A stretch of 64,000 nt of DNA, taken from NCBI GenBank assembly GCA_026419785.1, contig JAODTK010001888.1:62001-126000 (forward strand), given 5' to 3'. Position numbers and translations under genes: made by a program. The notes beneath the pieces are model-generated. The model made no database searches and had not been told where the DNA came from. It was given only the letters and a program-made list of their open reading frames with translations. Positions 4,565 to 46,495 of the stretch are shown here, one piece after another. Position 1 is the first letter of the stretch; each line of letters opens with the position of its first letter. The DNA comes from Sclerodactyla briareus. Its lineage: Eukaryota > Echinodermata > Holothuroidea > Dendrochirotida > Sclerodactylidae.

Positions 4565-4597
4565 TATATAATACGTGCGGCGAGTCCGATGCTCTCA
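4565..4597 (+). promoter_or_regulatory. Core promoter: TATA box and initiator (arm A gene)
   Basis: TATATAAT at 4,565-4,572 is followed by CTCTCACAG, whose A at 4,597 fits an initiator about 32 bp downstream. From the TATA box to the first splice donor, arm A' shows only about eight differences over about 117 bp, closer than much of the surrounding arm sequence. TSS position is inferred, not measured. Confidence 0.55.
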
Positions 4598-4655
4598 CAG
4601 CTCAAGACGATTCCGATCACTCAACGCCACAGCAGCATCGTGCAACACAAACATC

Positions 4656-7228
4656 ATGCAAGGTAAGAGAAGGTGGCTTGTGTTATCCAAAAGAATATGG
4701 TGTATGATTGAGAAGGTGAATTTCAATATCCCGATTTTCTGATACTATGTCTCCGGTAAATGCGATCCGTAATCCCTGTTTTTACCTTTCCCTCGCAGTT
4801 CCTGCCTTTTTTGCTTTATTCTCATGATCGTTAGTTAGTAGCATAGCCAATATCATGTGAATATTGAACCATTGTGACGGATGATTCGATTTTTTGTTTC
4901 TTCTTTGAACCGGCATCCTGTTTCTCACCGCAATTTTATTGAACTTCCGAATTCTGGGCCAATTACGGTCATTGATGCTCATACTAGCTCGAGCAGTAAT
5001 CTCTCTCCTGTATGCTTCTTGATGCAGTGATAGGCTATAAGGTGTTCCAACTTCACACGGTCCCTTCTATTCATGCAGAATGGCAGACGATGAGTAGGCC
5101 TATTTTTCGAAGTTGACAGTTACATCACTGGACGGAAATTAAACATGGGTTATTGAATCTTCTGTCAACTTAGAATATATTCCGGAGACTGTTAGACTAA
5201 TGTCAATTGGTCTTGTAGGACGTCATAACGAAAACCTGAGCGAATTTGCATTGACAGACGCCTTCAATTAAAATATTCGTTCTTTTGGCGCAGTTTCTCG
5301 CTGATTACTTTTTGCAATTACTGTTAGTGACATTGGCAACTCATGGCATTTCGCAGTACTGTACTGCGTATAATTCGCACAAGTCTGGGCCTGGATGGAA
5401 AAAATGTGTCGTGTAAAAGAACCTTCGGCTGTTCATTGCTCTGATTATGTCAATATGAGGAGTTTTTGGCATTTCGTGAATACAAATTGAAATAAGGACT
5501 GTAGAACCAAATTGGGTATGGCAAGACTGCATGTTAAATTTAATCATCACATTAATTGAATATGACATTTCCGAGAAATGAACTGGAAAAAGGCTTCTAT
5601 CTGTTGACGAACTTGACGGGTTATCAGATTCCCATGTAAAAATGGTTGGTGTCGTTGGTCTGGTGTCTCAACGAGGAGGCGCCCTACGGTATATCCAAAT
5701 TATTATGATATTGACTCTGTAGTAGTAGGTTGAGTCGCAGTGATCAACATCCGCCACGTATCACGATCTTGTGTGAGGTTTATTGCTTCCTCAAAACTGT
5801 TAATGTTGATGTCCCTGAGTTGCGATTTGATTTTTCCGAGTAAGGCGGTCACGGGTCTCCCAACTGGCTTAGTAGTATGTCTCAATGGTTCTCTCAAAGC
5901 GATCTGCGTCAGGACTCCCTCTTGCAGTCTTGCATTGACTTGGAATTTATACGTAGTCTATATGAGAATTCTACTGAGACGGTTTGTGTCGTGGTGTCAT
6001 GTAATTGTCGCTTTTCATCAGTGGCTACTGGACGACAGACTCCTGTTTGAGGATTATTTCCGCTTACTACATGTATATTTGAAAGAAAAAAAAAACGAGT
6101 GGTCACGAGAATCAGTGGTATAAAGCACTAAATAGTATGACTGATATTGTTATGAATAGAGAATATTTAGGAAGCTATTAGTAAATATTATTTTAATATA
6201 ACATATGGTTTGTCTTATAATTGCTTGTTATCATCTCACCGGTCCCGGAGGGCCGGATGAGATATTGAATAGTCAATTGGCCATATCACCCATATTTAAC
6301 TGTTGCTGATTTTTCATTAACAGTTGCCATGGTAATCATAGTGGTGGTTAAGAACTATCCACTGAGGGGTACCTACTATAGTGGGGTACCCATGGCGCCG
6401 GATGATCAGCTTTGAGGTGCACTCGCGGAAGTGTCCGTTTTTGCGTGTGGCCATGTGCGTGAGTGTGTATGGTGTGTGTGTGTGTGTGTGTGTGTGCGTG
6501 TGTGTGTGTGTGTGCGTGCGCCCTGCGTGTTCAGTCAGATTTGTAGGTTTTCACTTTGGAGTGGCTGAACTTCACAGGCCTGAAGAGTCACAAAACACAT
6601 ATTTCCTCAAAGAATAAGGCGGAAACATCACATTGTGAAAATAGAGGGGAAGGGAAAACAAAAAGTGCATATTTTTCAAGATATTTGCTGATTCTGATGA
6701 CTGGAAGATTCTGAGATTTTGTAGCATCGTTGAGAGACAAAACTACAACTTTTCCAATACAATCAGCTAAAAATGATAGAAAAAATGTGGATTTTAGGAG
6801 GCCAAATTGGGGATTCAAAAAAGAAAATCTGTTCTTCTCCAATATATTTAGAGATTGGAAGGATTAAATGGTTCAGACTGAAAATTTCATGGAACTGCTA
6901 TGAATATGTTTGTAGAAAACAGTGTTTTCAGCCATATTTTGATGAATTTTGTCTACTTGCAACTCGCAGGTAGGAACGACTGAATTAGGAAAAAATCAAA
7001 ACAAGAAGAAGGCATCGATTATGTTAGGATCAGTGGTTCTTCTACTAAATATTATACAGGGTGGTTGTTATTTGGACAGTGATATCATTAACCACTGACA
7101 AAATAATGTGGGTTACTCACGATCTGCATAAGAAATGATAATTAATAGTTTCGGGAGGCTCATATATTTCCAGCAGTGTTTTTATGATCATAAGACAAAT
7201 ATCATCTGGCGGTCACATTGGCAATCAC

Positions 7229-7260
<32 letters not shown>

Positions 7261-7282
7261 TATATAATATATATATAGATAT

Positions 7283-7324
<42 letters not shown>

Positions 7325-8599
7325 CCTTCCTCCATCGAATTCAATAGATAGTTTAGCATGAGTTTTTTTCACAATTGTTGATCGCACTGGCCAGATGGTA
7401 CAGATAAAAAGTAACATTCCGAATAAAAATGGGGAATCCCGAATCCGAAGATAGTATTCAAATCAAAATCAGCACCAACTGTCGCACCAAGTGGCGGAAT
7501 GCCATGAGGCGATCTGTCGGTGACCGCACATTTAGTGTCGTGGCTCCCAAGCTCTGGAATAAACCTTCCAGCTGCAATTCTTGTCACTTAAGACCGTAAA
7601 ACGGTCCAGCGTACTATTTGGACTCATTGATCAAGGAACCCCCTGGCGTTTAAGTGGTTTCTGTTTCTTGAGAGGGCGCTATATAAGTGTAAAGTACTTT
7701 TATTATTGATACCATTATTATCAACAAATATCAGCCTAAAGATAGGAGTGATCCGCCTCCCCTTAGCCCCTCCTAAAGGACCGCACGAACATACTATCAG
7801 AGTTTTGTGTCAAGCCGTCCCATGTCTGATTCCCATAACTCTTCATCTCTCGATCCAAGAGTCGTAATAGCCTAAAGAGTGCAGTGATGGCGCAGTGCTA
7901 CATCTCCCATGTTCTCGTTTGAAGTATAACTGTCACATGGTGGATTTAACAAAACGAATAATTAGTCACTGGCCAGAATATCGCGTGGCCGATATCATGC
8001 CACCTGAGGTTCCATCCAACAATCTAGCATGAATAATTCTCGCCGGTCCAAGCCCCCCCCCTCCCCAAAATACAAAGAAAAACTCACTTGACGTCACGAG
8101 GACTAAAAGTGTCATAAATCCGATGATTATTGCCGGTAACGTAATGTTTACAGACTATGTATTGCTCATTATAATGGTTCCAACAGGATTGTGTGAATTT
8201 TGTTTTTGGAGCGTGCGTACTTGCAGCCGCGGAACGGTCCAACTAGCTGAGGCATTGCGCTAATGGTTTCAGGCTTCTCTTCGTGATTTTATTTTTCCGG
8301 AGGGGGGGGGGGGGGGTTTCTGATGCCTAGTGATTACCAGTTTACAAGACTCTTGCCTGAGTTTGGCTTACTCGGAATCAAATTGAGGGTAGACCAAATT
8401 CAGTCGTTGAACAACTGAATGGAGGGGTCTAATCCTTTATCCTAATCTCCACAACGTTTGAAATGAATTACTGGTTTTGTTTTTGGTTTCGGCAGGTTAC
8501 TATTCATACCTGGTAGTAGTCGCAGCGTATGCGGTGATGATGGTCGCAGGGAGGCAAGGTAATGATGAAATACTGGAGGAAAGAGACCCAGATTGGTAG
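4656..8599 (+). CDS. Predicted two-exon small secreted peptide, 36 aa (arm A copy)
   Basis: Join 4,656-4,662 with 8,496-8,599. Exon 1 carries a 5' UTR from about 4,597, the start ATG at 4,656 and ATGCAAG, then donor GTAAGAG. The intron is 3,833 bp and ends in a pyrimidine-rich run plus TTTCGGCAG. The splice is phase 1 and creates Gly3. Residues 1-20 read MQGYYSYLVVVAAYAVMMVA, a convincing signal peptide with a hydrophobic core at 8-20. Residues 21-31 are charged and 32-36 are RDPDW before TAG. The arm A' copy has the same exon structure, frame, signal peptide and ending. The following 3' sequence, AAACAGACTATCTGGGGGAA, is identical in both. A GTAATG inside exon 2 (8,558) and GTGAGT at 8,641 are possible donors, so a longer or alternative transcript is possible. 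Family unknown; a secreted effector or peptide precursor is inference. Confidence 0.55.
5725..5945 (-). pseudogene. LINE ORF2 C-terminal fragment
   Basis: The minus strand frame reads REPLRHTTKPVGRPVTALLGK, then a DININSFEEA block and LTQDRDTWRMLI, matching the usual end of non-LTR retrotransposon ORF2 (GRP basic block, about 30 residues, then AQDRxxWRxLV). The reverse-complement partner in arm A' is at 35,640-35,830. Truncated at the 5' side and dead. Confidence 0.65.
6233..6960 (-). repeat. Dispersed hairpin-ended repeat, copy 1
   Basis: One of four copies (others 34,620-35,305, about 55,700-56,533, and a partial at 42,765-42,960). Shared parts are a terminal hairpin (ATCTCACCGG...CCGGATGAGAT, 6,233-6,263), the CCATGGTAA/GGTTGCCAT-like block, a GGTACCCATGG block, a GT microsatellite (6,470-6,515) and AT-rich sequence with TTTCAAGATATTTGCTGATT. 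No transposase was found. Non-autonomous element of unknown class. Confidence 0.6.
6466..6520. repeat. (GT)n microsatellite
   Basis: A near-pure GT run interrupted by a few GC steps, inside the hairpin-ended repeat. The A' and 56.3-kb copies have shorter, degraded CA-rich versions at the same place. Confidence 0.9.
7229..7321. repeat. (AT)n microsatellite
   Basis: About 90 bp of almost pure AT with occasional breaks. The Tyr/Ile-only reading frame across it is an artefact. Confidence 0.95.
7400..7712 (+). pseudogene. CR1/L2-like LINE 3' end (arm A)
   Basis: The + strand encodes STNCRTKWRNAMRRSVGDRT followed by FSVVAPKLWN, the well-known C-terminal block of CR1/L2/Jockey-group ORF2 proteins. 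It is then followed by the typical 3' UTR ending GGCGCTATATAAGTGTAAAGTACTT plus TTATTATT. The arm A' counterpart is at about 33,975-34,375 on the minus strand. Strongly 5'-truncated. Confidence 0.7.
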
Positions 8600-8794
8600 A
8601 AACAGACTATCTGGGGGAATCAGGCATTGTTTTCAGGAAGGTGAGTGTCTCTGCCTATATTCGGTTACACACCAGGAGGCCTGTATTTACAAATGATCAA
8701 GTTAATGTCACAGTATATTTTGAATATATGTTATAATTCGTTGGTTGTCGGGAAATTGAAGGAAAACTGAAACTTAAAATAAGTAATAGTAATG

Positions 8795-8800
8795 TTATTA

Positions 8801-8836
<36 letters not shown>

Positions 8837-8860
8837 TTATTAGTAGTAGTAGTAGTATCA
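8795..8860. repeat. (TTA)n-(TAG)n microsatellite: empty insertion site
   Basis: A TTA/ATT run then TAG repeats. The reverse complement is (CTA)n then (TAA)n, exactly the context of the R4/Dong-like LINE in arm A' (31,440-32,880). This locus therefore shows the site without the insertion. Confidence 0.8.
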
Positions 8861-9522
8861 ATATATACATAGAGAGTGAAGAACTGAATCCAGCATTTCC
8901 ATACGATGGATCTCATATGGGTTCGCCGGGCAATTTGAAATACTCACTTACTATTGGGTGTCCTCTCTTGGATGTCCGTCGCGATTAGCGGTCAGGCATT
9001 ACCGTCGACGTTTTCCTATCCGGGGGCCAATTTCGCCAAATGGAGGTAAATACCTCCGACATCATCAATATATAATCATCATCATCATACAGTTTAAGAT
9101 CAGTATAAGGCAGTTGTTGTTTCTGTCATAGCGGTATCTGAGGCCACGAGTATTGGACGTTTATTTGCTCTATGTCGTTATACAGATCCCGTTTTGGCTG
9201 TTCCTAATTTTATAAGAAGATCTTCTGGACGTACGTAACGATCCGTATCTAATTTGCCAGATCCCCGAGGATGTTACCAATTCAATGATCTGACACCCGA
9301 AATCAGCAGAGCGAGGATGACACAGTGGTGATGGGAACAACCCAGTGTTTCTTTTTTAATGGTTTCGATTTAATGATAAAAGTAATTCGTAAAGGCTTCG
9401 AATTTCGAAAAAAAAATATATGGTGAGAAATAGTGGAACTGGATGATTGTCGTATCACACTCTACGTGAGTTTCTACAAAACTCACTGCTACTGTATCTA
9501 CTATCTATGGCTCCTTTCCAAT

Positions 9523-9786
9523 TCATACGAACTTGACAATTCTTTCTTCAACAACCACTGCGTGAGAAATCATAGGAGGATCGGGTGAGCTTAATAGCGA
9601 ATCTGGCGGAGGGAGTCTGATCTGAAGTGCTGAGTTCCTCTTGGCGGGGAGACCACGGAGAAATTTTAACAAATGAGGGGGAGGGGGGAAGGTTAATATC
9701 CCGGAATCGGGGACATCGGAAACAAAATATGATGATGATGCAGCGGTGCCAGCCAGGTGAGTAGTAATTGCCTCCCGCGACGGCAT
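9523..9786 (-). CDS. Hypothetical ORF, 87 aa (doubtful), paired with an ORF in A'
   Basis: Starts MPSREAITTH and ends VVVEERIVKFV-stop. The partner in arm A' (30,048-30,287, + strand) starts MPSRGAFTTH and ends VVVGERIVTFV-stop. The last 41 codons align without indels, but by eye changes are mostly non-synonymous (about 10 against 4) and the middle is in a different frame. That pattern fits unselected sequence more than a conserved protein. No promoter, signal peptide or domain was recognised. Confidence 0.15.
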   Translation of the reverse strand: MPSREAITTHLAGTAASSSYFVSDVPDSGILTFPPPPHLLKFLRGLPAKRNSALQIRLPPPDSLLSSPDPPMISHAVVVEERIVKFV

Positions 9787-10639
9787 CGCTATACCAGGAT
9801 GTCAGTGAGCGCGGAAATAAGACATTCTTGAATATTAGATCGGGAACGAGTGTAAGCAGGAAAAATGCACATCCAATCTGCCTAGTTATCAATTATCAGG
9901 TGATTGATGATTACCATGGTGTTACCAAATCTCATATACCTGTTAGCGAAATTGTCCTATGTTTAGTCTGAGTTATAACATTTATCACACACAGTGAACT
10001 TTTATGTATGCATCCCCGGGAAACGCGAATTATATGTATGATTTACTCCTGTCGAAGTGAATGTTCGCCTGATTTCGAGGACATCGGGTGTGATTGATCG
10101 GATTCAGACTTCCAACGGCAGCAAAATTCCACCCAGTTGGAATGAATGGGCCACGTGACCTCAGTATGCAATAATTCCACGCGAGTTATAAATAAATAAA
10201 CAAATAAAACACTTTATATCTCTATACAGTTCTAAGACCGCGGATAGCCACTTTCATATTTTCAGGCCGCTTCATATGCAATCACTGCGAGCTAATATCC
10301 ACCAACACTTCAGATTTTGCTTCGCGGTTCCTGCAATCGGAAGTATACAGATTTTTAGTTTTCTGACTTTGAATACCTTTGCTACACTGCAACGATGCGG
10401 TAACCATTAAACCGCGTATTTGTTTCACATTGCAGCTGACGAGAAGGAAGTATACAGTATATACCTATAGGGGGTATACCTTCTATGTGTGTACCGTAGA
10501 TTCGATTCCTAGTCTGGCATGTATTCGTAAAAAAAGAGAGTGCTCATTTATGGATTCTAAGATATTACTGATACACTGTCCACGACTCTCTCTCGTTTCT
10601 CACTTCCCTACCGGCGGGCAGAGTCCTTTAGGAAAGTCG

Positions 10640-11275
10640 CCAAAAATTGGCACAACTTGACACATAACAACTCGACACAACTCGGACCATGAGAGCGTTC
10701 TGGCTGATACGGAGTATGTATGGGGGGAAACAGTTCGTAGAGTATCTTCGGAGTGCGAAACCCTAACAAAACGTCACAAATTCAAAGTATTAGGACGTCA
10801 AAAACAGTAACATCGAAAATAGTAATAACCTCACGAAAAATATAATCAACCCACCGAAAAAAATTAGCCCATCAAGAAATGGAAACATGGTGTCCAGACC
10901 AGAAGTACACTATGTTTAACTCCTATAGAGGTTTGACAACGTATGAACGCTAATGTCCACATCAATAAACTTGTGCTGCTATCGTTCCGTCCATAGTCTC
11001 AGTAATAATGAAAATCGGTAAGACGATATTGCTTCCAGTTCTGGTGACAATAATGTTATTTCTCATTTTGAATTATCTATCAGGCAAGGCTGTTTTTGCC
11101 TGTACTTATACGGCGTGTATAGTGCTGCTCGCCATGGACATAAATGATAAAGTTGCAAATGAGCGAATTGCTCGTATTTTTTTATTTCATTTTTTTGCAG
11201 GCATCCTTTGTACCGCACAAGGACAATGATTGTGCCTTGTGCAGGACATGATGTTCCTAACAACAACAAAAAATG
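10640..11275 (+). repeat. Direct-repeat unit, copy 1
   Basis: Shares CGTTCTGGCTG, GGGGGAAACAGTTCGTAGAG, TCTTCGGAGTGCGAAACCC, GACGTCAAAAACAGT and ATGAAAATCGGTAAGACGAT with 11,450-11,915. Arm A' has one copy (reverse complement, about 28,370-28,860). A LINE 3' tail lies between the two arm-A units. Short frames here are not recognisable proteins. Confidence 0.75.
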
Positions 11276-11279
11276 TCTG

Positions 11280-11418
11280 AGATTTATTCCGGGTTATTCT
11301 TTAGTTTTAGTTAGTTAGTGAAGGGTAAAGAAGGACTGAGCCTCATGAGAGACCCCGAAGCCACAACAATCCAAAGAGAAGAACACCCCATGTTCAAAGA
11401 ATTCGCCCACAATTCTTG
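11280..11418 (-). mobile_element. 3' end of a CR1/Rex1-like LINE
   Basis: Reverse complement of the last roughly 140 bp of the LINE at 27,066-28,275 (GTGGGCGAATTCTTTGAACA, GGGGTGTTCT, CTCATGAG, AACCCGGAATGAATCTCAGACAT). It lacks the coding part, so it is either an extreme 5' truncation or the remains of a deletion. It sits between two direct repeats. Confidence 0.7.
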
Positions 11419-11449
11419 AAAAATAATAAAGACGAACGGAAACATGATT

Positions 11450-11915
11450 TGGGGGAGTTGACCACTTGGAGTCGAACCCAGCGATCGTTCTGGCTGTACG
11501 AGTATGTGATGGGGGAACAGTTCGTAGAGAATCTTCGGAGTGCGAAACCCAACAAATGTCACCAAATCAGAGTATCAGGACGTCAAAAACAGTGTCATAG
11601 AAATATAAACAACCTCGCCAAAAAACAGGATCAACCCATCGGAAAAAATCGGCTCATAAAAATAATGGAAACATGGTACAGGGTGTTAATCCCTAATAAG
11701 GTTGAACAGCGATATTGAACGTAATGTCTACAATAAATTGAACCTTTGTGCTGATACTGTACCGTACACAGTCTCAGTAATAATGAAAATCGGTAAGACG
11801 ATATTGCTTCCAGTTCTGGTGACAATAATGTTATTTCAAATTTTTGGAATTATCTATTAGGCAAGGCTGCCTTTGCCTGTACGTGTACGGCGTGTATAGT
11901 GTTGCTCGCCATGGA
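11450..11915 (+). repeat. Direct-repeat unit, copy 2
   Basis: Second copy of the unit at 10,640-11,275, absent as a duplicate from arm A'. It ends at GCTCGCCATGGACA, after which the two copies diverge completely. Confidence 0.7.
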
Positions 11916-12339
11916 CACTGCGGCGGTGGGTGAAAGGTTTTCTGGCATACCAAATCCGATAGGGAAAGTAAGGAGAGGAATAAGTGAGGCCAGGCTTTTT
12001 CTCTCAAGATTGTGGTCTGTACGTGTGTGCATGTATTGATCAGACGCCTTGGTGGTAGCTGACCGTCTGTAGATATCATGATCCCCTACCTGACCTGGAA
12101 CAGCAGTCCACACAGTTGCAAACAACTGGTAACATGAAGTCCGTTATGAAGTCAGTTATTAGAACCATGGCACAACCGCTGGGGGTCGCAACGTCCTACG
12201 CAACGGTTTTTGCGCCTTCGCGTTTGAACACCATCTCGAACACACCTCGTACTGCCTATGTGTTGTCATGGGGGTGGGGGTGGAGAAACGCCCAACGCAA
12301 CGGATTTTGCGCCTAAGTTTGGCAGGGATACTGCAATAA

Positions 12340-12630
12340 TGTAACCACTATAGTGGTCCATGGGGTGCATAGTGCACTCGTATGTGCTGGCCAGGCATCA
12401 CCGATACCGTTCCTTCAATACTCCGAACGGCATTTCATCAAACCTGGAGGACCGATGCCCAGCGATTGATATATGCCGGGCCGGCTAGTGCTCATACAAC
12501 TCCCTACACTCCCATGAGAGAGTGAGTCAGTAGGTAACTGAATCACTTCATTAATTCGTGCACTCGGCAAATCGCTTCCGCAATCGTCTACGACGTTGGA
12601 AAGCGCTATATAACCTGCAGCTTATTATTA

Positions 12631-12664
<34 letters not shown>

Positions 12665-21305: not shown

Positions 21306-23439
21306 CACAATGCAACGTTCTCCCCCGTTGTCACAGCTACAAGAAAGCTTTGTTTGGTAGTTGTCAATGTAGATTTCGAGATATTTGAATGAGAATAGAC
21401 TACTTCCGGTGGTTAGCCTGTGGTTAGCTCTTGGGGATTAGATTTGTCACAGGGTCGTTGTGATGGAAACTGTGCGTTTGATAAAGAGAGTGACATTGAC
21501 TGTAATAGCACCGTGTCATGTTTTGGAAAACACGTTACTGTAATTATCGACCGAATGTAAATACTCAAACAGAGCAGGGTGTCATCAACTGGGAACGACT
21601 GTTTTGTATCTAACGGTCTGCAGACAATGAATATTCTATCTGTATTAACATACCGATTCTCCCGAACAGGAGAATTGCAGAAATCTCCCAAACAGGAGAA
21701 TCCTCCCGCTGCCTACACCTTATATATAGGTCAATGAAAATGAGGGCAAGTAAGGCTCAATATCCACATTTTCATGTCTGCGCGCTAAAAAGCCATCTGT
21801 GCATGCCGTTTTCCTGTCACTTCGAAGAGTACGATATTTTGTACGGGATTGCGCAGTGAGGATCTTGTGATTTTCTAGTAAAAACAGGATTTTCACATTT
21901 GAAATTTCCATAGTTTTACGCCAGTCCGTCATATTAGGATTCACGGAAATTTAGGTACCCGAAACTTGATAAAAATTATTATTATATAAAATTAAAATAT
22001 GATTGAACTCATAAGGAGACTGTAGACACTACCGGAAGGAGGCTGCTCAGAGACTGTATTATTGAAGAGGGAAACAGTAAACATAGAAAAAATGCGCATG
22101 ATTGGTGACGACATTCTCCAACATTAGAGGTTGTCATCCTGCTCGATACCATCTTGCTTAATTTATATAATATGTCTTCCGTTTAATTTTTGATTATGCA
22201 AGTATAATCATGTTTACAAAAAAAAATGCTACTTGAGAGTTTAATCTTTGATTCACATTCAGGAATGAAAACATACCTTTATGACTGACTTTGCACAGCA
22301 CGTTTATTGTGAAGGGTCGCTGCCCGACGCCATCCGATAATGTAACTACCTCTTTAGAGATTTGCTGATGGGGACGCATATTTTCTTTCATGGATCGCGA
22401 AGGGGAACGATTTACTCATTATATTTTGTATCAATTTGAATACCAACTCTATAACCTTGATTGGAAGAAGCATTAATTGATGTAAACTTGTTATTCTTTA
22501 CGTGACTGCTGTGATCGCATTACTGTGCCAGAGGTAATTTTACTAGTCTCATTACTAGTCTTGATGAAGGTCATGTACGGTCAAGTTAATTAGAGTTCCT
22601 TCATATTTGTTAGGGGTAATACATAATCGCAGTTCCTAGCCTGATTAGTTCGCCAGAAATTCTTCGTTGGCCTTAGTGAATAATGATAAACCTCCATATG
22701 GGCAAGTCATATGGGTTGGCTGAACGAGGTCATCTATTCCGCCAAGAATCCTGTCGCCTTGGGAGATGCCAGATGTATAATATGAACCACCATTTCCACT
22801 CTTCTGACGGAACTCGAAAGAAAAAAAAAAATAATAAATCAGTAAGATTCTGCAAATTCGAAGGTATGTTCACGCAGGGCAACTGTGAACAAGAGAACAA
22901 ATTACCCGCCGTCTGATACGTCTGCTCCTAAATGACTTAAATAATGGTTAATTCATGTATTTTTCACACTATTCTACTAACAACGAAGAATGAAATTAAG
23001 TAACGTTCATCGTCCATTGAATTTGAACTCAAATGCAGAACTCCCGCCTAGTCCTTCCGTGTTTATTGCTTCAGGACTGCTTCCAAACATGTTTCTCGGG
23101 GCGTTGGTATTCTCTGGTGCGGGCATAGGCATCAATCCATCTTCAGAAGTGGGGGACATGACCAAAGTGGGGGGGGGGGACATAACCTCGCGGCCAAAAG
23201 AATACTGTGTGAAAAATGAGAGCATCATCAAAATGTGGGGGGGGGGGACACGTCCCCCCGTTCCCCCAGGATTGACGCCCCAGGGTACGGGGGTTGAACG
23301 GAAGTGCACCGTCCTATGCAGCGGCGCCAGTGACTCGCTTAACCATTCCACCCTCGTGCAAATCGAACTGTGGCAAACGGAGAACGTCACACCTTCGAAG
23401 ATTATTAGACAAGCATGTTTATTCCATGTTTGATTTGAT

Positions 23440-23790
23440 TTCTACTGGTTCGGAAGCCAACTAAGGCTCATATAGAAACCCTGGCCGTATTGATTGTGGA
23501 TGAGCACCGGTGATAACTCACCTTCTCTCTCGACTAGTGCTAAGATGATAAGAGCAGGGGTGTAACCAATCCCAACCATCTCTCGGGACCGCCATTTTTA
23601 CGTCCCCATCCGAAAGGACCCGACACTTCTCGGAACCGGAGGAGGGGACGTTCAAGTTCAACGTGGCAGCTCACAGAGACCGACGAATGCAGCCACCTAT
23701 GGAAAATTGTCCGGTGACTCGCTGGAATTCGAAACCGGAATATTTTGGTTGTAAAGTGTCACTGATACCACCTTACCATTCTTCCGCTCA
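23440..23790 (-). mobile_element. tRNA-derived SINE-like insertion in C, absent from C'
   Basis: On the minus strand a B-box-like GGTTTCGAATTCC is followed by a conserved-looking GTCGGGTCCTTTCGGATGGG block, then ACGTAAAAATGGCGGTCCCG, a pattern seen in many marine animal SINEs. C' joins TTCCATG directly to TCAGGTGACATC at 63,105-63,125, so it is the empty site. The A box is not clear. Confidence 0.5.
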
Positions 23791-24099
23791 GGTGACATCG
23801 TGTGGTATCGTATATGGATGAAAAATATTTTGAAAGAAAACCAATAGTTACAATACGTTGATTTATAAGTTAGTAGTAATTAACAACATAAGTGAAACAC
23901 CCTTAGCAACAAGCATACCGCTAACTAGGAATATTGCTACTGGGTATATTATACAATCGACATACGACCACCTATTACGACTAGTTGTAAGAATAATCCC
24001 TCTCTGCGTTCAAGCAGGCTATACTCTGTGCTTAGGATGTGGATTTTACTAATTGGGATCATCACAAAAGCGCAGTGCTTCTTTAAGCCTTGGACGGGA

Positions 24100-24375
24100 G
24101 CAATTTTACCTTGTAATCAGTCCAGCATGCCTGGTGAAAACAATTTTGGTGCGTGTATTCCCATAATGAGTACATCACCACTATTCATTTTTGTAGGCGA
24201 AGGGGTCGATTCTGGGAAAAAAAAGTGAGAGCGTTTGAAAATTTGCAAATTCGAGCACTTCTGCCTTGTAATCAGGCTAAACCCAAACATGCCCGGTGGG
24301 ATCAAGTAGCTGTACTTTCCGTGATGAGTACATGAATGTTATATATTTCCTAGGCGTAGGGGTAAAAAAAATAGA
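24100..24375 (+). repeat. Two-unit tandem repeat, about 155 bp (copy C)
   Basis: TTGTAATCAG..., GCATGCC(T/C)GGTG, ATGAGTACAT and GGCG(A/T)AGGGGT recur twice, with a weaker third unit near 24,480-24,540. C' has the same units on the other strand at about 62,400-62,800. The phrase CNQ..MPG seen in translation is a repeat artefact. Confidence 0.6.
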
Positions 24376-27065
24376 AACTTGTTAATTTGGTCTCTCTAGT
24401 TGAGCAGATTTAAATTTTGAAGGGATAAGTGCAAATGTGAACCCCAGATGATAAGATAATCAGTTTCTCATGAGAAGGGGTCAAGTTTTGGCTCGAATCA
24501 GGCTTGCCTGGTCCAGTCAAATTTCAAATCTGCTACATGTATGCCCTGTGAGTTCTAGAAATAACCAGGTCTTTCAGTAACGAAGTACCTATATGCTATA
24601 ATTCTGCATTATTGCAATGATGTTGACAGCAAATATTTCATAATATGACTTTTCAAATGTAGCGATGCGCAATTTTCGTGTTGACTTCGACTAACCTTCT
24701 GATTTCGTAGGTAATTCACAGACCCACCGTCAAGTTGCAACAGACCTAGTTATACTTTTCAGGAAATCAATTAGAATATTGATATAAATATTCGTGCAGA
24801 ATATTGGCCATTAAGAATAAATTAGTTTGCAACGGCACACGACAGGGTGGAATAAATGGGCTATTTTCCAGTGTGATTCGCGCCCCGGACTCTATGGAGT
24901 GAAGGGCGGGTTGATAAGTCTCCCTCGAACTCGTTTCTTGCCGTGAACGTGGGTGGCTTCCTCTTGCACGTCCTCAGCTCCACAGGTGAATAGGAAGATT
25001 GAGTTTTCAGAGAACTTGAGTACGCTCTTTGGAACTTGTGATGTCCTGCGGAATCAAGAACCATGCAGACGGCAAATTTCCATCCAGCGCCTAGTGATAT
25101 TTATTGTGGCGATCAACGGGATTCTCATGTAGAGGCGACATTGTCTTACAGGGTTTTGCTAACCGGATGTGGCTGCAAATTTTAATGGGCTCTAGCCTAG
25201 AGATACACATCACTCCACTTCTCGCCCTATAATATACTACGGTAACGTTAGTGGAGTGCCGTCATTTCTGGCTCCGAATGCTGGAGATTTCGCCTGATTG
25301 TTGTCCATATCTTTTCCTCTCACCTTTATTACATCCCTGTAGCTTATTTTTCCGGAGAAATTTCTAGTCCAACTTTCTCGTCTGGTGTTTCAGTGGTCAA
25401 CGTTGGTTAGCTCCTCCAGTAAAGTGTTACACAGAGGGATGTGTGTTGTTGTTTCACTGCGCAACCACCTCCGGCTGTCAACTTCTTCTGAGGGAAGGGC
25501 TTTTTAGGTGCAATTACTTAGCAATATCGAAGAATCGCTGCGTAATAGGGGACTGAGTACGTATGTCAGCTATCCAGTCATGACACGATGCCTGATAATA
25601 ACTACTTGCCACGACTATAAGGAAATATGTCTGTTTTTTTCTTTATATATATATTTAGCGATTTTCCGAGTGCACGAATTAAGGTGGCCTACTGGGAGTG
25701 TATGTATGTAAGTCGCCTAGCCGGCCGCATTATTTAATCACTGGGCATCATTCCTGATGAAATTCCGTAATGAAGTAAATGGAATCGATAATGCCTGGCC
25801 AGCACATACGAGTGCACTATGCACCCTATAGACCACTATAGTGGTTACATTATTACAGTACCCCATGCCAAGACATAGGCGCAAAATCCGTTGCGTCGGG
25901 CGTTGCCCCCCCCCCCCCCCAGCGGTTGTGCCCTGGATCTAATAGCTAAACGGACTTCATGTTACCGGTAGGTTGCAACTGAGTGGGCTGCTGTTCCAGG
26001 TCAGGGAGGAAGTTGATCAAGGGCGGGATTTGTGTTGGCGATGGAAGGGGGGGGGGCGCAAGATGAATACTATCTAAGCTGAGCGCCACCACTGGTTGGC
26101 GCGTATCGTACACGAACATTTTTCGTTTGACAGACTAGATTGCAAAAAAAAACGGCACTTCGCCTGCCTTATTGGACAGTGAGCAGCTTCCTAAAATTGA
26201 TAACAAATTGATAAATTAGGGAAGGTTCGCCTTAGGATCAATTTCAAGGTGTTCCGTTGGATCTGTGACATTCTACAATACCATGCAAGTGAGCTAGTTA
26301 GTCGTGAAAGGAGCAATGGAAATGGGCAATGGCAACAACCAGTACGTTCGCGCGACATTGCGATCACAAATAACTTTTAACATTTTGGCAAAGTATTCAA
26401 CTATTTGTGCTCCATACAGGAAAAACAGGATCTCACCCAAAAATTTGGAACATTTAGCTAGCTTTAGCTCTACTTTCCTTCCCAACATGCTATACGCCAT
26501 GTGCCCAACAGAGCATTATCTGGAGAGAACATGCGTTGAAAATACGAGCGGTCTGATAGCCTAGGCTACTGCAGTTCCAAATCGCACGTGGTCGAGGAGG
26601 AGGAAACGGACCGGAGGCAAAATGCTTAGTAATCATAAAGAGGTTGATTGTAGTTTCCAAGGTCAATGAGATTGTGCGGAAATGACGGGAGAGCAACGGG
26701 ACAAAATTCACCACTAGTACACGCGCGAAGCACAAAATTTGTTCACTTTTTATTGCATTCGAGGCCAATTTGTCACTTTTTTTGTCACTTTCGGGCATTC
26801 CATCGGAAATTCGTATCATTTTTTTTTGACAACGCAATTTTGTGGCGTTCCCTGGCCGCATTTTCGATGCCCCACCGTGTGCCCTCGTAGGAATAGTATG
26901 TGACTGTGAACTCAACTTTCAACAAGTGGTCGCACCCATAAATAAAATTTGAAAAATCACAGATCCCGCCAGGTGGTAGACCTACCCACGTCGCCTAACC
27001 ACCTTCACCTCAAAATAGCGATTTGTGTGTTTGTTTGTTTATTTAACTAACCTTCAAAAACAAAA

Positions 27066-28275: not shown

Positions 28276-30047
28276 TTTTTTCTGTTAAGGAACATCATAT
28301 GTCTGCAAATGGCAAATCATATGTCCTTGTGCGGTACATAAGATGCCCGCAAAAAAAAAAAAAAAAATCGGAAATGACGCAGCAGAATTCGCTCATATGC
28401 AACTTGATCATTTAGGTCCATGGCGAGCAACACTATACACGCCGTATAAGTACAGGCAAAAACAGCCTTGCCTAATAGATGATTCCAAAAATGTGAAATA
28501 ACATTATTGTCACTAACACTGAAAGCAATATCGTCTTACCGATTTTCATTATTACTGAGACTATGGACGGACAGTGTACTTCTGGTCTGGACACCCTGGT
28601 TTCTAATTCATGACACCATGTTTCAATTTTTGATGGGCTGATTTTTTTTTTTTTTTTTTTTTCGGTGGGTTGATCATATTTTTCGTGAGGTTATGTCTAT
28701 TTTCGATGTTACTGTTTTTGACGTCCTAATACTATTTTGTGACATTTGTTGGGTTTCGCACTCCGAAGATTCTCTACGAACTGTCTCCCCCATCACATAC
28801 TCGTACAGCCAGAAAACGATCTTGAGTCCGAGTTGTGTCAAGGTGTTATTTTGTCAAGTTGTGGCCAATTTTCGACCTACCTAAAGGACTATTCCACCCT
28901 CCGGTGGGGAAGTGAGTACGGAGTCGCGGACAGTGGATCAGTAATATCTCAGAACCCCTAAATGATCATTCTCTTTTTTTTTACGGATTACATGCCAGAC
29001 CAGGAATCGAGCCTATGGTACACGCATTGGAAGGTATACCCCTCATATACTGTAGGTATATACTGTATACTTCTTCTCATCAGCTGCAATGTAAAGCAAA
29101 TACGCGGTCTAATGGTTACCGAATCATGGCAGTGTCGCAATGGCCACTGCCCTACACTAACATTTGGCTGAGATTGGAGATCAAGGTAGGCTTACTTTAT
29201 TTCACTTGTTGTTGCGAAGAATCAGCCACATGGTTTGCTGCAGTCAAACAGTGTTACATCAGCACTGAAACGTCACCGCATCTGGTTTCGCAGTGACGTT
29301 GTGGCATCTGCTTTTCCTCCAAGTTGGTGAGAGGAAGAAAAGCATGTAGCAATGCACTGATTGTATCTGTAAACGGTCGATTTCATTTGACACTACAATT
29401 CCAAATATGTACTAAATAAAATATGTGTCTTCCTGTCGATTGAATAATATTTAAGGTCATCAAAAAAGATAATTCGAAGTCAACAACTGAAAATCTGTAT
29501 ACTTCCGGTTGTAGGAACTGCGAAGCAACATCGGATGTGGGTGGATATCAGCTAGCAGTGATTGCATGTGGGGCGGCCTGAAATATGAAAGTGCGTCTCC
29601 GCGGTCTTAAAACTGCTGAATTATGAGAATGAGTTATAAACTCGCGGTATTGCATACTGAGGACACGTGGCCCATTTATTCCAACTGGGTCATTTTGCAG
29701 TCGTTGGAAGTTAGAATCCGATCAATCACCCTTATGTCCTCGAAATCAAGCGAACGTACACTGCGGCAGGGGTAAATCATGCATATATTTTGCGTTTCCT
29801 CCTTCCCCCAGGATGTCATACAGAAAAGTTCGAATGGTCAGTATAACGGTACTTTTGCTAATAGGTATATGAGATTTAGTGGACGTGGGTGGAAGAGGAG
29901 GACAGTTCGTAACACACCTGATATCACCAATCCCCTGATAATTGATAACTGGACAGAGGGGAGGGCATTTTTCTCGATGACATTTGTTTCCCAATGCAAT
30001 GTTCAAGAATGTCTGATTTTCCCCCTCACTGACGTCCTGGTGTAGCG

Positions 30048-30287
30048 ATGCCGTCGCGGGGGGCATTTACTACTCACCGCTGCATCATCATGATCATCTT
30101 TCGTTTCCGATGTCCCCGTTTCCGGAATATTACCCACGCCCCTCTTCTCCAAGGGGTTTCAACCGCCAAGGGGAACCCAACACTCCAGACCAGACTCTCT
30201 CCGCCAGATACGCTATTAAATTCACCCGATCCGCCTATGATTTCTCACACAGTGGTTGTTGGAGAGAGAATTGTCACGTTTGTATGA
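30048..30287 (+). CDS. Hypothetical ORF, 79 aa (doubtful), partner of 9,523-9,786
   Basis: MPSRGAFTTH start and a 41-codon colinear C-terminal part shared with the arm A frame, ending at the same TGA. The middle differs by compensating indels. Changes are not biased to synonymous sites, so selection is not supported. Confidence 0.15.
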   Translation: MPSRGAFTTHRCIIMIIFRFRCPRFRNITHAPLLQGVSTAKGNPTLQTRLSPPDTLLNSPDPPMISHTVVVGERIVTFV

Positions 30288-32125
30288 ATTGGAAAGGAGT
30301 CATATATACAGCAGTGAGTTTTGTAGAAACTCACGTAGAGTGTGATACGACAATCATCCAGTTTCAATTTCTCATCACTATACATTTTACCTAATATCGA
30401 AATTACTTTTATCGTTGAATCAGAACCATGAAAAAAAAAAAAAACACTGGGTTGTCCCATCCCAACTGTTTCATCCTGCTTTGCGGTTTCGGGTTCAGAT
30501 CATTGATTTGGTAACATCCTCGTGGATCTGGTGAATCTGGAAAATTAAGAGACGGACCGTTACGTCAGAATATCCTCCTAAACAAATTAGGCACAGCCAA
30601 AACGGGATCTATATACCGACATAGAGCATAATAACGTCAAACCCTGCCGTCAAACTTTTCAGCTAATTGATCTTATACTGTGTAATAATCCAACGAGCTG
30701 GACCATACCTGTACCATTTTTATATAATGTGAGCTTCGAGCGTACTGGATTATGTCATTACGCTGATAACGCCCATATAGCTCACTCTGGTTGTATTAGT
30801 TGACCCTGTCCTAGGTATATTGGAAATCTCAATGAAATCTTCACCAAACAGTGTTTTTGCGGGTAAGTCACGAGACAGCATGTATTTGATCAAAGTGGGC
30901 AGTCATGTCTCGCGCCCCAATTGGATCGTGCAGAGCTCATACCTCAAGGTACCCTACCATTGCCACTAACAGCGGATGTTGCATTTAAAATAGACAACTA
31001 CGTTGCTATCTAAGCAGAGCGTCACCGTCGGATGAAGCCGGTCATTTGTCTGTCTATGTTTGTGATAAGAACCCTCAGATCTATGCCTAATGAATCTTAG
31101 GAACTCATCTATATAGGTAATTAAGGTTGGTAGGTTCTATCAGAATGGATAGAAAGCCATAACATCACAATCGGGTGTCAGTTGTCTGAGGATATTGGAG
31201 GAATATACCCTCAAATTGGCAAAATTGGCCCCCACGAATAGAAAAACGTCCACGGTAATGCTGAAGACCAACTTAGAGGACATCCAAATAGTAAGTGAGT
31301 ATTTCAAGATTTCCCGGAGAATCCATATGAAATCCATCGTATGGATATACTGAACTCTGTTCTACACTCTCTATTCAACAGTTCGAAGGTTACAATCGTT
31401 GATGCGGAGCAAATGTGTTCGTAGATTTGCATTGTTACACCTATGAATACTACTACTACTATCACTACTACTACTACTACTACTACTCTACTACTACTAC
31501 TATCACTACTACTACTACTAATAATAATAATAATAATAATAATAATATGGTAATATTACGAATACCTGGGCGTACTGCAGAACATGGAAAACAAACAGAG
31601 GGGAGGTCAAAGACAAGGCATCGGCAGCGTACAGGAGGAAGCTACGTCAGATCCTCAAGTCCAAGCTCAATGGGCAGAACAAGATACACGACCAGGGACA
31701 CATACGCCTGCTGTATCATCTTTACGGCGGGCATAATAGACTAGACGCAGCAAGAGCTGGCTGAGCTGGACTGCAAGACGAAGAAAACGATGAACATGTA
31801 CGGTGGACTACACGCACGAGCTGACGTGCACCGGCTGTACATCCATGAAGGGACGGTGGGAGGGGCCTGAAGGGGTCGCGGCCACCATGACACTCCAGTG
31901 TGCCGGACTCCAGGAATACATCGCGGGACAGAGACCCCTGATAGAGGCTGTGTGGCGGAATGAGGTGCTTACGGGGTATAGCACGAAGAAAGAGACAAAG
32001 GCCGATTGGCAGAAAGAGTGTACGGAAAAAATAGGCAGTAAAACGCTACACGGACAATGCAGACAAAAGACAAGACGAATGGCCCACCCCCAGTATAAAC
32101 GGCGATACAGAACTCCTATCAATGG

Positions 32126-32662
32126 ATGCAGAAGCTAAAGGTTTTCAAGATAGACAGAGGCACTGATAACAGCTGCTCAAGATCAGGCCCTGAACACCAA
32201 GTGTCACCAGTCACCCGCACATCGAGTGATCCGAAATGTCGCATGTGCCACCCGAAAGACGAAACGGTGGCTCATATAACAACGGCCTGCTCGAAAATCG
32301 CCGGAAGTCTGTTCAGGACAAGGCATACACGTGCGGCCACACTACAAAATCACGGTATTTCCACACTACGGGACCAGACGAAAGATACGGCAACGATCCT
32401 CTGGGACTTTGAAGTGGGAACTGACATAGTAATCAGCGCACGGAGACCAGACCTGGCATTAGTGGACGAAGCCACGAATGAAACCACCATAATCGACGTG
32501 GCAATACCTGGGAGCAGTGTCCAACAACTTAGGTGGTCACCTGGAAGAGATTACTGGACAACACGGAGTACGCCCCTAACAAAGACAGCACTACTTGGCA
32601 GTGCACATATACTCAGACAGGTGCTCGACCTCCCAGAGTCCGGTAGCCCAGAGTCCGGGTAG
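32126..32662 (+). CDS. LINE ORF C-terminal part: CCHC finger plus restriction-like endonuclease
   Basis: A 178-codon frame; the true protein would start far upstream. Cys38, Cys41, His50 and Cys55 form C-x2-C-x8-H-x4-C. The region ILWDFEVGTDIVISARRPDL (91-110) followed by TTIIDVAIPG (120-129) matches the PD-(D/E)xK-type nuclease of site-specific LINEs, with Pro108-Asp109 and Asp124 as likely catalytic residues. In such elements the nuclease nicks the target to prime reverse transcription. The upstream ORF is broken, so this is probably a remnant, although this part is uninterrupted. Confidence 0.7.
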   Translation: MQKLKVFKIDRGTDNSCSRSGPEHQVSPVTRTSSDPKCRMCHPKDETVAHITTACSKIAGSLFRTRHTRAATLQNHGISTLRDQTKDTATILWDFEVGTDIVISARRPDLALVDEATNETTIIDVAIPGSSVQQLRWSPGRDYWTTRSTPLTKTALLGSAHILRQVLDLPESGSPESG

Positions 32663-32731
32663 GACTCCGAGGGCTGAGGACCAGGCTTATACAAGTACCA
32701 ACCAAGGAGGACAATTGTAGAAGAATAATTG

Positions 32732-32862
32732 TAATAATACTAATACTAATACTAATACTAATACTAATACTAATACTAATACTAATACTAATACTAATAC
32801 TAATACTAATACTAATACTAATACTAATACTAATACTAATACTAATACTAATACTAATACTA
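32732..32862. repeat. (ACTAAT)n hexamer array
   Basis: About 21 near-perfect TAATAC/ACTAAT units at the 3' end of the R4/Dong-like LINE, merging into the TAA microsatellite target. The lack of intervening spacers excludes a CRISPR array. Confidence 0.95.
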
Positions 32863-33091
32863 CTAATAATAATAATAAAATAATGAGAATAATAACAACA
32901 TTACTATTACCTATTTTAGTGTTTTAAATCTCCTCCAATTTCCCGACTATCAACGAAATATAATCTTAATTTTAAATATTAGTTGACATTAACATGATCT
33001 TGTAAATACAGGCTTATGGTGTGTATCCGAACATAGGCAGAGAGACTCACTTTCCTGAAATCAATGCCTGATTCCCCCAGATAGTCTGTTT

Positions 33092-36000
33092 CTACCATTC
33101 TGGGTCTCGTCTCTTCTGCATATCCTCTTCTCCATTACCGTCGTCCCCTGCGACCATCATCACCGCATACGCTGCGACCACTACCAGGTATAAATAGTAA
33201 CCTGCCGAAACCAAAACAAAACCAGTAATTTCATTCCGGGCGTTGTGGAGATTAGGATAAGGATTAGAGCCCTCGATTCAGTTGTTCAACGACAGAATTT
33301 GGTGTACCCTCAGTCTGATTTCGAATGACCTCACGAGAAGTGAAAATCCCGGACGAAAAGCCTGAAACCATCAGCGCAATGCCTCCAGTTCAGGTCCGTT
33401 CCGCGGTACGCATTCTCCAAACATTTTCATACAATTCTCTTCGAACCAAGAAAATGAACAATCCATAGTCTTTGAAAATTAGCTTTCTCTACCGGCAGTT
33501 ATCATATCGAATTCATGACACTTTTAGTCTTCGTCTCGTCAAGAGAGTTTTTTTTTTTGTAGGGGGGGGGGGGGATCTTGGACCTGCGAGAATTGATCAT
33601 GCTAGATTGTTGGATGAAACTTCAGGCGTCAGAATATCGGCCAAGCGATATTTTGCCCAGTGACTAATCATTCGTTTTGTTATAAAGAAAACCCTCCATG
33701 TGACAGTTATACTTCAGGCGAGAACATGGGAGATATAGCATCGCGCCATGGCTGTACTCTTCGGGCTATTACGGATTGAGGTACGAAGAGATATGAGAAT
33801 CAGACATGGGACGGCTTGACACAAAACTCTGATAGTATGTTCGTGCGGTTGTCGTTCTGTGGGATGTCTAAGGGCAAGGCGATGAACTCCTCTCTTTAAG
33901 ATGGTATTTGTTAATAATAATAGTATTAAATCTATAATATATAATATATAATATATAATAATAATACTTTACATATATAAGCACCTTTTTCAATTTATAA
34001 GAGGCGCTTAACACGAAACAGAAACCACTTAAACGCCAGAGGGTCCTTGATCAATGAGTCCAAATAATGTGCTGGACCTTCTTAGGGTCTTGAGTGAAAA
34101 GAACAGCAAGTGGAAGGTTATTCCAGAGCTTGGGAGCCACGACACTAAATGTGCGGTCACCAGCAGATCTCCCCTTGGCATTCCGCCACTTGGTGCGACA
34201 GTTGGTGCTGATTTTGATTTGAATAATTCTTCGGATACCCCATTTTTCGATTTCCGAAAGAATGTTAGTGCTGTCGCTGTCCTCGCGGAGGGGCTAAGAG
34301 GAGGCGGGGGACTCTTCAGGAGAATATTTGCAACATTTGGTGCCGACTTTGATTCGACTTTGATTTGAATTTGATTCTTTATCGGGAATGTTGCATTTTT
34401 AATCTGTCCCATATGGCCAGGCCAAACCAACATTCGGTGGTAAATGAAATTACTGTTCGAATCACAACCACCCCGCATAATATTTCATAGAAAAACTACT
34501 GATTCTAACATAATCGATGCCTCCTTCCTTGTTTTGATTTTTCCGTAATTTCACTTTTTGCTCTTCGTGCGACATGAAACATGAGGTAATCTCCGGAGTT
34601 GTAGGATCTCATTGGCAAATGGTGGAACCTCTAGTAGTTTCTACTTGCTACTATTTTGCAAGTTGCAAATACACAACATTCCAATATTCAAATTCTTGTT
34701 TTTCCAATACGTTCTGAAATCAGCCGTTTGTGAGTTTGTTTTTAATTTCCAATTTGGCCTCCTAAAATCCACATTTTCTGTAATTTTGAGCTGATTGCAT
34801 GGGAAAGTTTTATTTTTTTGTCTCTTGCTTGCCTACAAAATCTCCGGTTCTCTCAGTCATCAGAATCAGCAAATATCTTGAAAAATAGTGAACATTTTTT
34901 AAAAGAAAAATTGCCCCATAATGTCACATGTCCCATGTTGAGGGTTCACGCTAACTTTGTGGGAAATATGTGTGTCATGACTTTTCAGACCTGTGCAAAG
35001 TTTGACGATGTTCAGCCACACCAAAGTGAATATATTTGCGAAAACCATCACAAATCTGACTGACACGAAAACGCACACATACGCATAGATAGACACCACG
35101 CACACGACACAACACAAACGGACACTTCGCGAGTGCAGCTCACCAATGGGTACCCCACCGACGGGTACCACTCAGTGGATATTTCTTAACCACTATTATG
35201 GTTACAATGGCAACCGTTCCTAAGACAACCAACAACAGTTGAATATAGGTGAAATGGCTAATTAACTAGACAATATCTCATCCGGCGGTACGGGACCGAT
35301 GAGATGATACGACCAAGTATGAAACAAACCATATGCAGGAAAAACTTACTAATGGCTTCCTAAATATTCTCCATTCATAGCAATATCAGTCATACTACTT
35401 AGTACTTTATTCCCCAGATTCTCGTGACCATTGGTTTTTCTTTAAATATAATTCAAAGATACATGTAAAGCACAAATAATCCTCAAACAAGAGTCTGTCG
35501 TCCAGTAGCAACTGTTGAAAAGCGACAATTACATGACACCTCGACACTAACCATCTCAGTAGAATTCTCATAAATATTACGTATTATCATAAATATTACG
35601 TAAGTCAATGCAAGACTCCAAGAGGTAGCGTCGGCGAAGATCGCTCTAGAGAAGCATTGAGACATACTGCTAAGCCACTTGGGAGAACCGTGGCTACCTT
35701 GCTCGAAAAAATTATGCATCAGGGAATCAAACAATAGCTATTGAGGGCGCAATAAACCTTGCACAAGACCGTGATACGTGGTGGAGATTGTTCACTGAGC
35801 ATGTAGAACAGATGAGACTCAACCTACTAATACAAGTCAATATCATCATAATTTGGATATACCGTGGAACGCGTTCCTGTTGGGCGGAAGTATAACAAAC
35901 GACACCAACCATTTTTGTGGGTGTGATGAGATGACTTTGGAGGATCTGATAATCCGTCAAGTTCGTCAACAGGTGGAAGCCTTTTTCATCATTTCATTTC

Positions 36001-37006
36001 ATTTCATTCATTTATTGAAATGTTATATTCAATTAATGTGATGATTAAATTTAACATGCAGTCTTGTCATACCAAATTTGGTTTTACCTCCTTACTTCAA
36101 TTTGTATTCACGAAATGCCACGAAGTACGAACAATCGGAGAAGTGTTTTCAATCGTTTCAGCATTGTCCTGCTTAGTCACATCGCAGAGCTCCAAGTGAT
36201 TAGCGTTAATACGATGCATAGTTATTTCAGAGGTCCAGACGACGCACAACTCTATTGAAACCTCCTCATATTGACATAACTAGGGCAATGAATAGGCCCA
36301 GGCTTGTGGGAATTATACGCAGTGCAGTACTGCGAAATGCAGTGAGTGGCCATTATCACTAACAGTATCGTCAAAAAGTAGTTAACAAAACACTGCGCCA
36401 AAAAGAACGAATATTCGAGTTGAAGGCGTCTGTCAACGCAACTTCGCTCAGGTTTTCGTTATGACGCCCTACCAGATCAGTAACATTAGTCTAACAATCT
36501 CCGGAATATATTTTTAGTGGCCCATGATAATTTCCATCCAGTGATTTCACTGTCAACTCCGAAAAATAGGCCTACTCATCGTCTGCCATTCTGCATAAAT
36601 AGAAGGGACCGTGTGAAGTTGGAACACCTTATAGCCTATCACTGCATCAATCAGCATACAGGAGAGAGATACTGCTCGAGTTAGTAATAGCATCAGTGAC
36701 CGTAATGGGCCACAACTCCGAAGTCCATATGATTGCGGTGGAAAACAGGATGCCGGTTCAAAGAAAGAAAAATCAAATCATCCGTCACAATGGTTCAATA
36801 TTCACTTGATTCGCTAGCAAAAACCAATGGATGATGAGCATAAAGCAGAAAAAAAGAGGGCAGGAACTGCGAGAGAAAGTTAAAAACAGGAATTACAGAT
36901 CGCATTTTCAGGAGACATAGTATCAGAAAATCGGGATATTGAAATTCACCTCAATCTGTAAACTATATCATTTTGATAATACAAGCCACCTTCTCTTACC
37001 TTGCAT
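33092..37006 (-). CDS. Predicted two-exon small secreted peptide, 38 aa (arm A' copy)
   Basis: Join on the minus strand: 37,006-37,000 then 33,201-33,092. The transcript probably starts at 37,066. Exon 1 ends ATGCAAG before GTAAGAG; the intron is 3,798 bp and ends in GGTTTCGGCAG. Residues 1-20 read MQGYYLYLVVVAAYAVMMVA, differing from the arm A copy only at position 6. Residues 21-31 are acidic (GDDGNGEEDMQ), then KR-RDPEW and TAG. Compared with arm A the tail is exactly two codons longer, so the frame is kept despite strong divergence. A Lys-Arg pair (32-33) before RDPEW could be a processing site; the arm A copy has Glu-Arg there. The 3' flank matches arm A for about 50 bp to a GTGAGT donor-like site at 33,050. 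No known family; expression is unproven. Confidence 0.55.
33975..34375 (-). pseudogene. CR1/L2-like LINE 3' end (arm A')
   Basis: Reverse-complement partner of 7,400-7,712. The minus strand gives TNCRTKWRNAKGRSAGDRTF, then SVVAPKLWN, followed by the GCGCCTCTTATAAATTG tail. An extra stretch upstream (34,230-34,340) is missing from the arm A copy. Confidence 0.65.
34620..35305 (+). repeat. Dispersed hairpin-ended repeat, copy 2
   Basis: Arm A' partner of 6,233-6,960. Ends with the same 31-nt hairpin (35,275-35,305), preceded by GGTTACAATGGCAACC, the GGTACCACTCAGTGGATATTTC block and a degraded CA tract (35,070-35,130). Confidence 0.6.
35640..35830 (+). pseudogene. LINE ORF2 C-terminal fragment (arm A')
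   Basis: Partner of 5,725-5,945. LRHTAKPLGRTVATLLEK is followed by frameshifted NLAQDRDTWW-like sequence. Dead. Confidence 0.55.
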
Positions 37007-37065
37007 GATGTTTGTGTTGCCAAGATGATGCTGTGGCGTTTAGTGATCGGAATTGTCTTGAGCTG

Positions 37066-37097
37066 TGAGAGCACCGGACTCACCGCACGATTATATA
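37066..37097 (-). promoter_or_regulatory. Core promoter: TATA box and initiator (arm A' gene)
   Basis: On the minus strand TATATAAT (37,097-37,090) precedes CTCTCACAG with the presumed TSS at 37,066. Spacing of about 31 bp equals that in arm A. Confidence 0.55.
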
Positions 37098-46490: not shown

Positions 46491-46495
46491 AGTAT

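Follow-up and report, generated by a model that had tools for sequence, protein, structure and literature searches.

Cone-snail toxins and many of the antimicrobial peptides of invertebrates form lineage-restricted families of short secreted peptides, in which a conserved leader precedes a fast-changing mature part, and orphan secreted peptides of such type are common in invertebrates. Another group of short products, the single-helix membrane micropeptides such as sarcolipin, consists of 30-40 residues with one hydrophobic stretch, and its members are easily missed by annotation. The myticalins of mussels are described as linear antimicrobial peptides that are multigenic and cationic (PMC5577615).

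The pair of candidate genes described below (the MQG pair, one in each arm of an inverted duplication) resembles the toxin and antimicrobial peptide genes in that the precursor is short, the leader conserved, the mature part diverged and the gene duplicated, but differs from them in that the predicted peptides are acidic and carry no cysteine framework of the toxin or defensin type (zero cysteines in either peptide), in the conserved C-terminal RDP[D/E]W, and in that only two copies were found. With the myticalins, compared by description, the MQG peptides share the linear form, the multigenic state and the marine invertebrate origin, but neither peptide is cationic, the predicted mature parts being acidic with a net charge of about -4 each (counted by eye, assuming cleavage after VAG). 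With the sarcolipin-like micropeptides they share the length of 30-40 residues, the single hydrophobic stretch and the ease with which annotation misses them, but their hydrophobic part is N-terminal, the tail is acidic, and no match was found in Pfam. Because orphan secreted peptides are so common in invertebrates, the kind of gene predicted here is not new; the sequence itself appears to be new as far as the searches reach.

The window (the whole stretch of 64,000 bases analysed) spans positions 62001 to 126000 of a contig that is 397,709 bases long, within an assembly of 319 Mb. Positions roughly 36-12,500 pair with 42,050-25,700, and the two arms are a real and old inverted duplication. 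The identity between the arms is about 81% in alignable blocks with gaps scored as mismatches, that is, a divergence of about 19%, and gap openings amount to 2.1 per 100 aligned bases. Identical runs reach 53 nt within the intron described below and 54 nt downstream, and those touching the exons are 40, 33 and 36 nt long.

A sequence-only reading of this DNA had proposed an unrecognised gene in each arm, and its series of TATA box, initiator, ATGCAAG/GTAAGAG, intron of about 3.8 kb, acceptor and exon 2 was recovered base for base in both arms. In arm A (forward strand), a CCAAT box (4493-4497) lies 104 bases and a TATA box (TATATAA, 4565-4571) 32 bases upstream of the initiator TCTCACAG, of which the A is at 4597. 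Exon 1 (4597..4662) consists of a 5' UTR and only seven coding bases, ATGCAAG (4656-4662), followed by the donor GTAAGAG at 4663; the phase-1 intron (4663..8495) ends at 8495 with the acceptor TTTCGGCAG; and exon 2 (8496..8640) contains the stop codon TAG (8597-8599) and, 41 bases on, the donor AAG/GTGAGT at 8640/8641. The CCAAT box is conserved in arm B (reverse strand) at 37171..37175, and a TATA box of the same sequence (37091..37097) is located 31 bases upstream of the initiator A at 37066. Exon 1 of this arm (37000..37066) ends with ATGCAAG (37006-37000), the phase-1 intron of about 3.8 kb (33202..36999) has the acceptor TTTCGGCAG followed by G as in arm A, and exon 2 (33051..33201) has TAG at 33094-33092 and, again 41 bases on, the donor AAA/GTGAGT at 33051/33050. 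Exon 1 of arm A matches that of arm B at 62 of 66 bases, and the indels between the arms are one of 1 nt in the 5' UTR and, within the frame, only one of 6 nt.

The layout drawn in that reading thus stands element by element, but it was incomplete in two respects, as a conserved GTGAGT donor is located exactly 41 bases past the stop in both arms and a second block of mini-ORFs lies downstream. Since a conserved donor past both stops leads one to expect at least one more exon, exon 2 as drawn is probably not the last exon. No poly(A) hexamer (AATAAA or ATTAAA) was found at aligned positions common to both arms.

The joined frames give a 36-residue peptide, MQGYYSYLVVVAAYAVMMVAGRQGNDEILEERDPDW, for arm A and a 38-residue peptide, MQGYYLYLVVVAAYAVMMVAGDDGNGEEDMQKRRDPEW, for arm B, and the near-identical N-terminus and RDP[D/E]W ending claimed for them were borne out, with 20 of the first 21 residues in agreement. 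The hydrophobic core in the N-terminus scores 2.73, a value reached by 24 of 1576 ATG frames of at least 30 codons within 176 kb of the contig. The inverted pair may represent RNA polymerase II genes that are restricted to one lineage and encode short secreted peptides; this is the most likely of the readings considered, and we assign it a probability of about 0.45, somewhat below even. Transcription would start at the TATA/initiator promoter with its CCAAT box, removal of the phase-1 intron of about 3.8 kb would join ATGCAAG to exon 2, and at least one additional, untranslated exon would probably follow exon 2. A hydrophobic leader of about 21 residues would then route the product to the secretory path and be cut off near VAG, leaving a mature product that is acidic and cysteine-free, has 15 or 17 residues and ends with RDP[D/E]W. 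All these steps, from transcription and splicing through translation to secretion and leader cleavage, are predicted from the DNA sequence. The peptide may serve in extracellular signalling or in defence, the former being slightly favoured because of its short acidic form. Nonsense decay has a 50-nt limit; as only 41 nt separate the stop from the junction in either arm, the mRNA would escape it, which fits the short frame as the true product. Annotation tends to overlook genes whose start exon has seven coding bases and lies kilobases away from the remainder. Should the two genes be expressed, they would illustrate cleanly how ORF scans pass over a short, lineage-restricted gene for a secreted peptide, and each would offer a paralogue for comparison; should they not be, they would show how readily an old duplication yields something that looks like a convincing gene.

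A variant that overlaps with the secreted-peptide reading is a membrane micropeptide, in which the hydrophobic stretch would remain in the membrane and anchor the peptide, leaving the acidic RDP[D/E]W tail exposed. The n-region ahead of this stretch carries no positive residue in the predicted peptides and the stretch itself is about 15-19 residues long, both of which agree with an anchor, as does the almost wholly hydrophobic nature of the unspliced frames in two copies of the downstream block (A2 and B1, 25 residues; see below). Small residues at positions -3 and -1 fit leader cleavage, however, and V-A-G of the MQG peptides places them there. We regard retention as an anchor as decidedly unlikely.

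The conserved donor past the stops would also allow a different product from a real promoter and real splice sites, with exon 2 internal to a longer transcript. In one form this transcript would be a non-coding RNA, the frame of 36 or 38 codons being a small upstream ORF; in the other it would be coding, continuing through the donor-like CAAG/GTAATG within the frame of exon 2 (8559, phase 1, forward strand) into downstream exons, perhaps those of the downstream block, so that the hydrophobic stretch would be the leader of a larger protein. It fits such a transcript that the donor past both stops is conserved and that GGTAATG is kept inside an otherwise diverged part of exon 2. Both arms, however, retain the stop at the identical 41-nt spacing, and no convincing conserved coding exon was found elsewhere in the arms. 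We judge a longer transcript with another product to be less likely than the secreted peptides, but the strongest of the rivals.

Relatives were searched for at the level of both DNA and protein. In the 319-Mb assembly, the two loci were the only matches to the DNA of exon 2, to that of the promoter with exon 1, and to the 36-residue protein at E up to 10; the assembly is possibly incomplete (COX1 gave no match, and HSP70 was fragmented, with 13 of its 14 pieces on one contig). No spliced retrocopy was present among the exon 1 and exon 2 DNA matches in the assembly, and the 176 kb of contig contained no further significant copy. In Pfam, at E up to 10, zero families were matched by the two peptides and by the unspliced MKIGK frame of copy A1 (see below). 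Protein sequences were searched in a set of 5.8 billion that includes eukaryotic proteins, considering only those of 0.55-1.75 times the query length, with the exon 2 frame of arm A (51 residues) and the unspliced A1 MKIGK frame as queries; for neither query was there a length-eligible candidate sharing three 5-residue words. A longer relative of the 51-residue frame would escape such a length limit, a point in favour of the longer transcript. In the literature searched, RDPEW and MQGYY were absent and RDPDW appeared only as letters in irrelevant papers. No known family was thus found in Pfam, in the length-limited protein search or in the literature searched, in line with the earlier reading, which knew of no family with such a sequence. 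A total of 14 PDB sequences matched residues 8-32 of the 36-residue peptide (E 3.2e-17 to 0.95), all of which we take to be designed proteins (dTor, BGL, pD5-14, LK031 and the like); they were rejected as compositional, because repeat proteins sum many weak matches and only one of them has stretches that pass alone.

Chance controls were performed on the 176 kb with a loose-rule scan for TATA, start near donor, acceptor, hydrophobic frame, stop and donor. The real sequence gave two structures on the forward strand and one on the reverse strand, of which two are the MQG pair and the third has the same exon 1 with a different acceptor. From ten order-2 Markov shuffles, each of a single 176-kb strand, the scan returned 1, 0, 0, 0, 0, 0, 0, 0, 0 and 2 structures, three in total, and a single structure in 176 kb is thus unremarkable by chance. 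CCAAT and TATA boxes at this spacing number 26 in the real sequence of 176 kb, nine of them followed by an initiator; the mean counts over ten order-3 shuffles were 20.9 and 7.7, and the frequency is thus near chance. The background rates of identity between the arms were 0.232 for 9 nt (TATA, acceptor), 0.121 for 14 nt (ATG-donor) and 0.355 for 6 nt (donor), and a 99-nt frame open in arm A stays open in arm B in 353 of 2153 background cases (0.164). Multiplied together, the rates for the TATA box, ATG-donor, acceptor, final donor and open frame give about 4e-4, which we read as suggestive because it was formed after the structure had been seen, with a post hoc choice of signals, and treats the pieces as independent. 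Joint survival of all the signals and the open frame in diverged arms would in this sense exceed the background.

These controls bear on a neutral origin of the whole structure, in which the signals resembling a gene in the arms of the old duplication would be chance, or remains of a dead gene, picked out by the eye of the reader. The yield from shuffled sequence (about 0.3 comparable structures per strand per 176 kb), the near-chance promoter spacing, the rate at which background frames stay open and the scattering of conserved runs across the arms are all in line with a neutral relic, but the figure of about 4e-4 for all five signals surviving together speaks against it, and we consider it unlikely.

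Compared with windows of the arms' background, exon 1 ranks in the top 5%, the leader (8497-8556) in the top 18%, exon 2 in the top 11% and the tail plus 3' UTR in the top 5.5%, and the variable part ranks in the bottom 13%; the identity of the exons is only modestly above the background. The 3' UTR is identical between the arms at 39 of 41 bases, a conservation equal to that of the leader and coding part, which is also what a longer transcript would show. Within the leader (21 codons, 63 bases) there are one synonymous and one non-synonymous change, and past the leader 1.67 synonymous and 12.33 non-synonymous changes (pS 0.213, pN 0.332), this pN being higher than the background of about 0.19. 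Such a pattern matches that of secreted peptides with a conserved leader and a fast mature part, as judged from the predicted frames. For the whole frame, pS was 0.118 and pN 0.156, with no meaningful difference, and the frame is kept open in both paralogues. When both arms were scanned for codon patterns at scores above 8, neither the exon 2 frame nor the MKIGK block was listed, and many weak segments were returned, with both strands scoring alike. Coding selection on the MQG frame is thus neither demonstrated nor excluded. Altogether, the sequence-only reading is right about the split-start structure and the two related peptides, and its proposal of secreted-peptide genes is partly supported: it gains from the joint survival of the signals, the pattern of indels and the hydrophobic N-terminus, but loses from the pN/pS values, the codon scan and the modest conservation of the exons. 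Further points against such genes are the longer identical runs outside the exons, the missing shared poly(A) hexamer, the n-region that lacks a positive residue, the lack of a homologue in the searches and the ease with which one such structure arises by chance.

The second mini-ORF block (MKIGK) is present in three copies, A1 (10986..11139, forward strand, ATGAAAATCGGTAAGAC, ATG 11008), A2 (11761..11917, forward strand, ATG 11783) and B1 (28386..28571, reverse strand, ATG 28549), and neither its DNA nor its protein had any match in the 319-Mb assembly besides these three. Outside the MQG exons, few stretches of the arms are as conserved as this block, with an identity of 93.7% over 175 bases between 10986-11160 and the other arm, which is equalled by 0.2% of 5107 windows (its own neighbours included). 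No promoter for it was seen by eye. Read without splicing, A1 gives MKIGKTILLPVLVTIMLF... (73 residues), two bases being missing relative to A2 and B1, both of which give 25 almost wholly hydrophobic residues, MKIGKTILL[P/S]VLVTIMLF[Q/H]IFGIIY. The sequence ATGAAAATCG/GTAAGAC is present in all three copies, and when the GT...AG stretch of 66-68 bases is removed, all three read MKIGKA[V/A]FACT[Y/C]TACIVLLAMD and then diverge, A1 with its 66-nt stretch removed reading MKIGKAVFACTYTACIVLLAMD.... A spliced MKIGK frame would parallel the MQG genes in having its start codon in the preceding exon and an intron of phase 1, and the block may be linked to the MQG gene. The conserved acceptor-like site and the phase-matching GT-AG stretch at this block again fit a longer transcript that runs on from exon 2. 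Between A2 and B1 the MKIGK frame has four synonymous and two non-synonymous changes (Fisher p 0.027, with sites rounded to 18/57 from counted sites of 16.3/58.7), a weak result because this was one of six frames looked at. Each arm could even be a compact unit with two hydrophobic mini-ORFs, private to the locus and unlike in sequence, the MQG one with a split start exon and the MKIGK one with its start codon next to a GTAAG donor. The two would then make up a new family with two classes of micropeptides, secreted or membrane-bound, in which the leader is conserved and the mature end changes fast; they would be invisible to standard gene finding and possibly be carried on one transcript, but we consider such a unit markedly improbable.

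Several other features were observed in the window. A second set of inverted repeats pairs 21968-25491 with 63809-60133 at 70-80% identity, and a tandem duplication of about 1.3 kb with 81% identity occupies 43861-46502. The segment 9437-9490 (30363-30310 in arm B) consists of 54 identical bases with a perfect 8-bp hairpin, GTGAGTTT/AAACTCAC. Nine RNA folds, covering five stretches on one strand and two on both, gave z values of -1.46 to 1.47 against shuffles, the best being this hairpin at -1.46, which is not significant. Searches of the window with Rfam (gathering thresholds) and for tRNA gave no matches; 10385-10530 presumably resembles a tRNA-derived SINE, with a B-box-like GATTCGATTCC. 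Within the intron, the stretch 7455-7600 (34225-34100 in arm B) is highly conserved between the arms, predates the duplication and, we assume, resembles the tail of a CR1/L2-type retroelement (GDRTFSVVAPKLWN). In arm B only, at about 31580-32720, a retroelement is inserted within a TTA/TAG microsatellite; its frame at 32126-32659 has 20 relatives with 29-52% identity, some of which bear the Pfam accession PF13966, and the only two named ones come from Holothuria leucospilota (a reverse transcriptase with 33% identity) and Bolinopsis microptera (31%).
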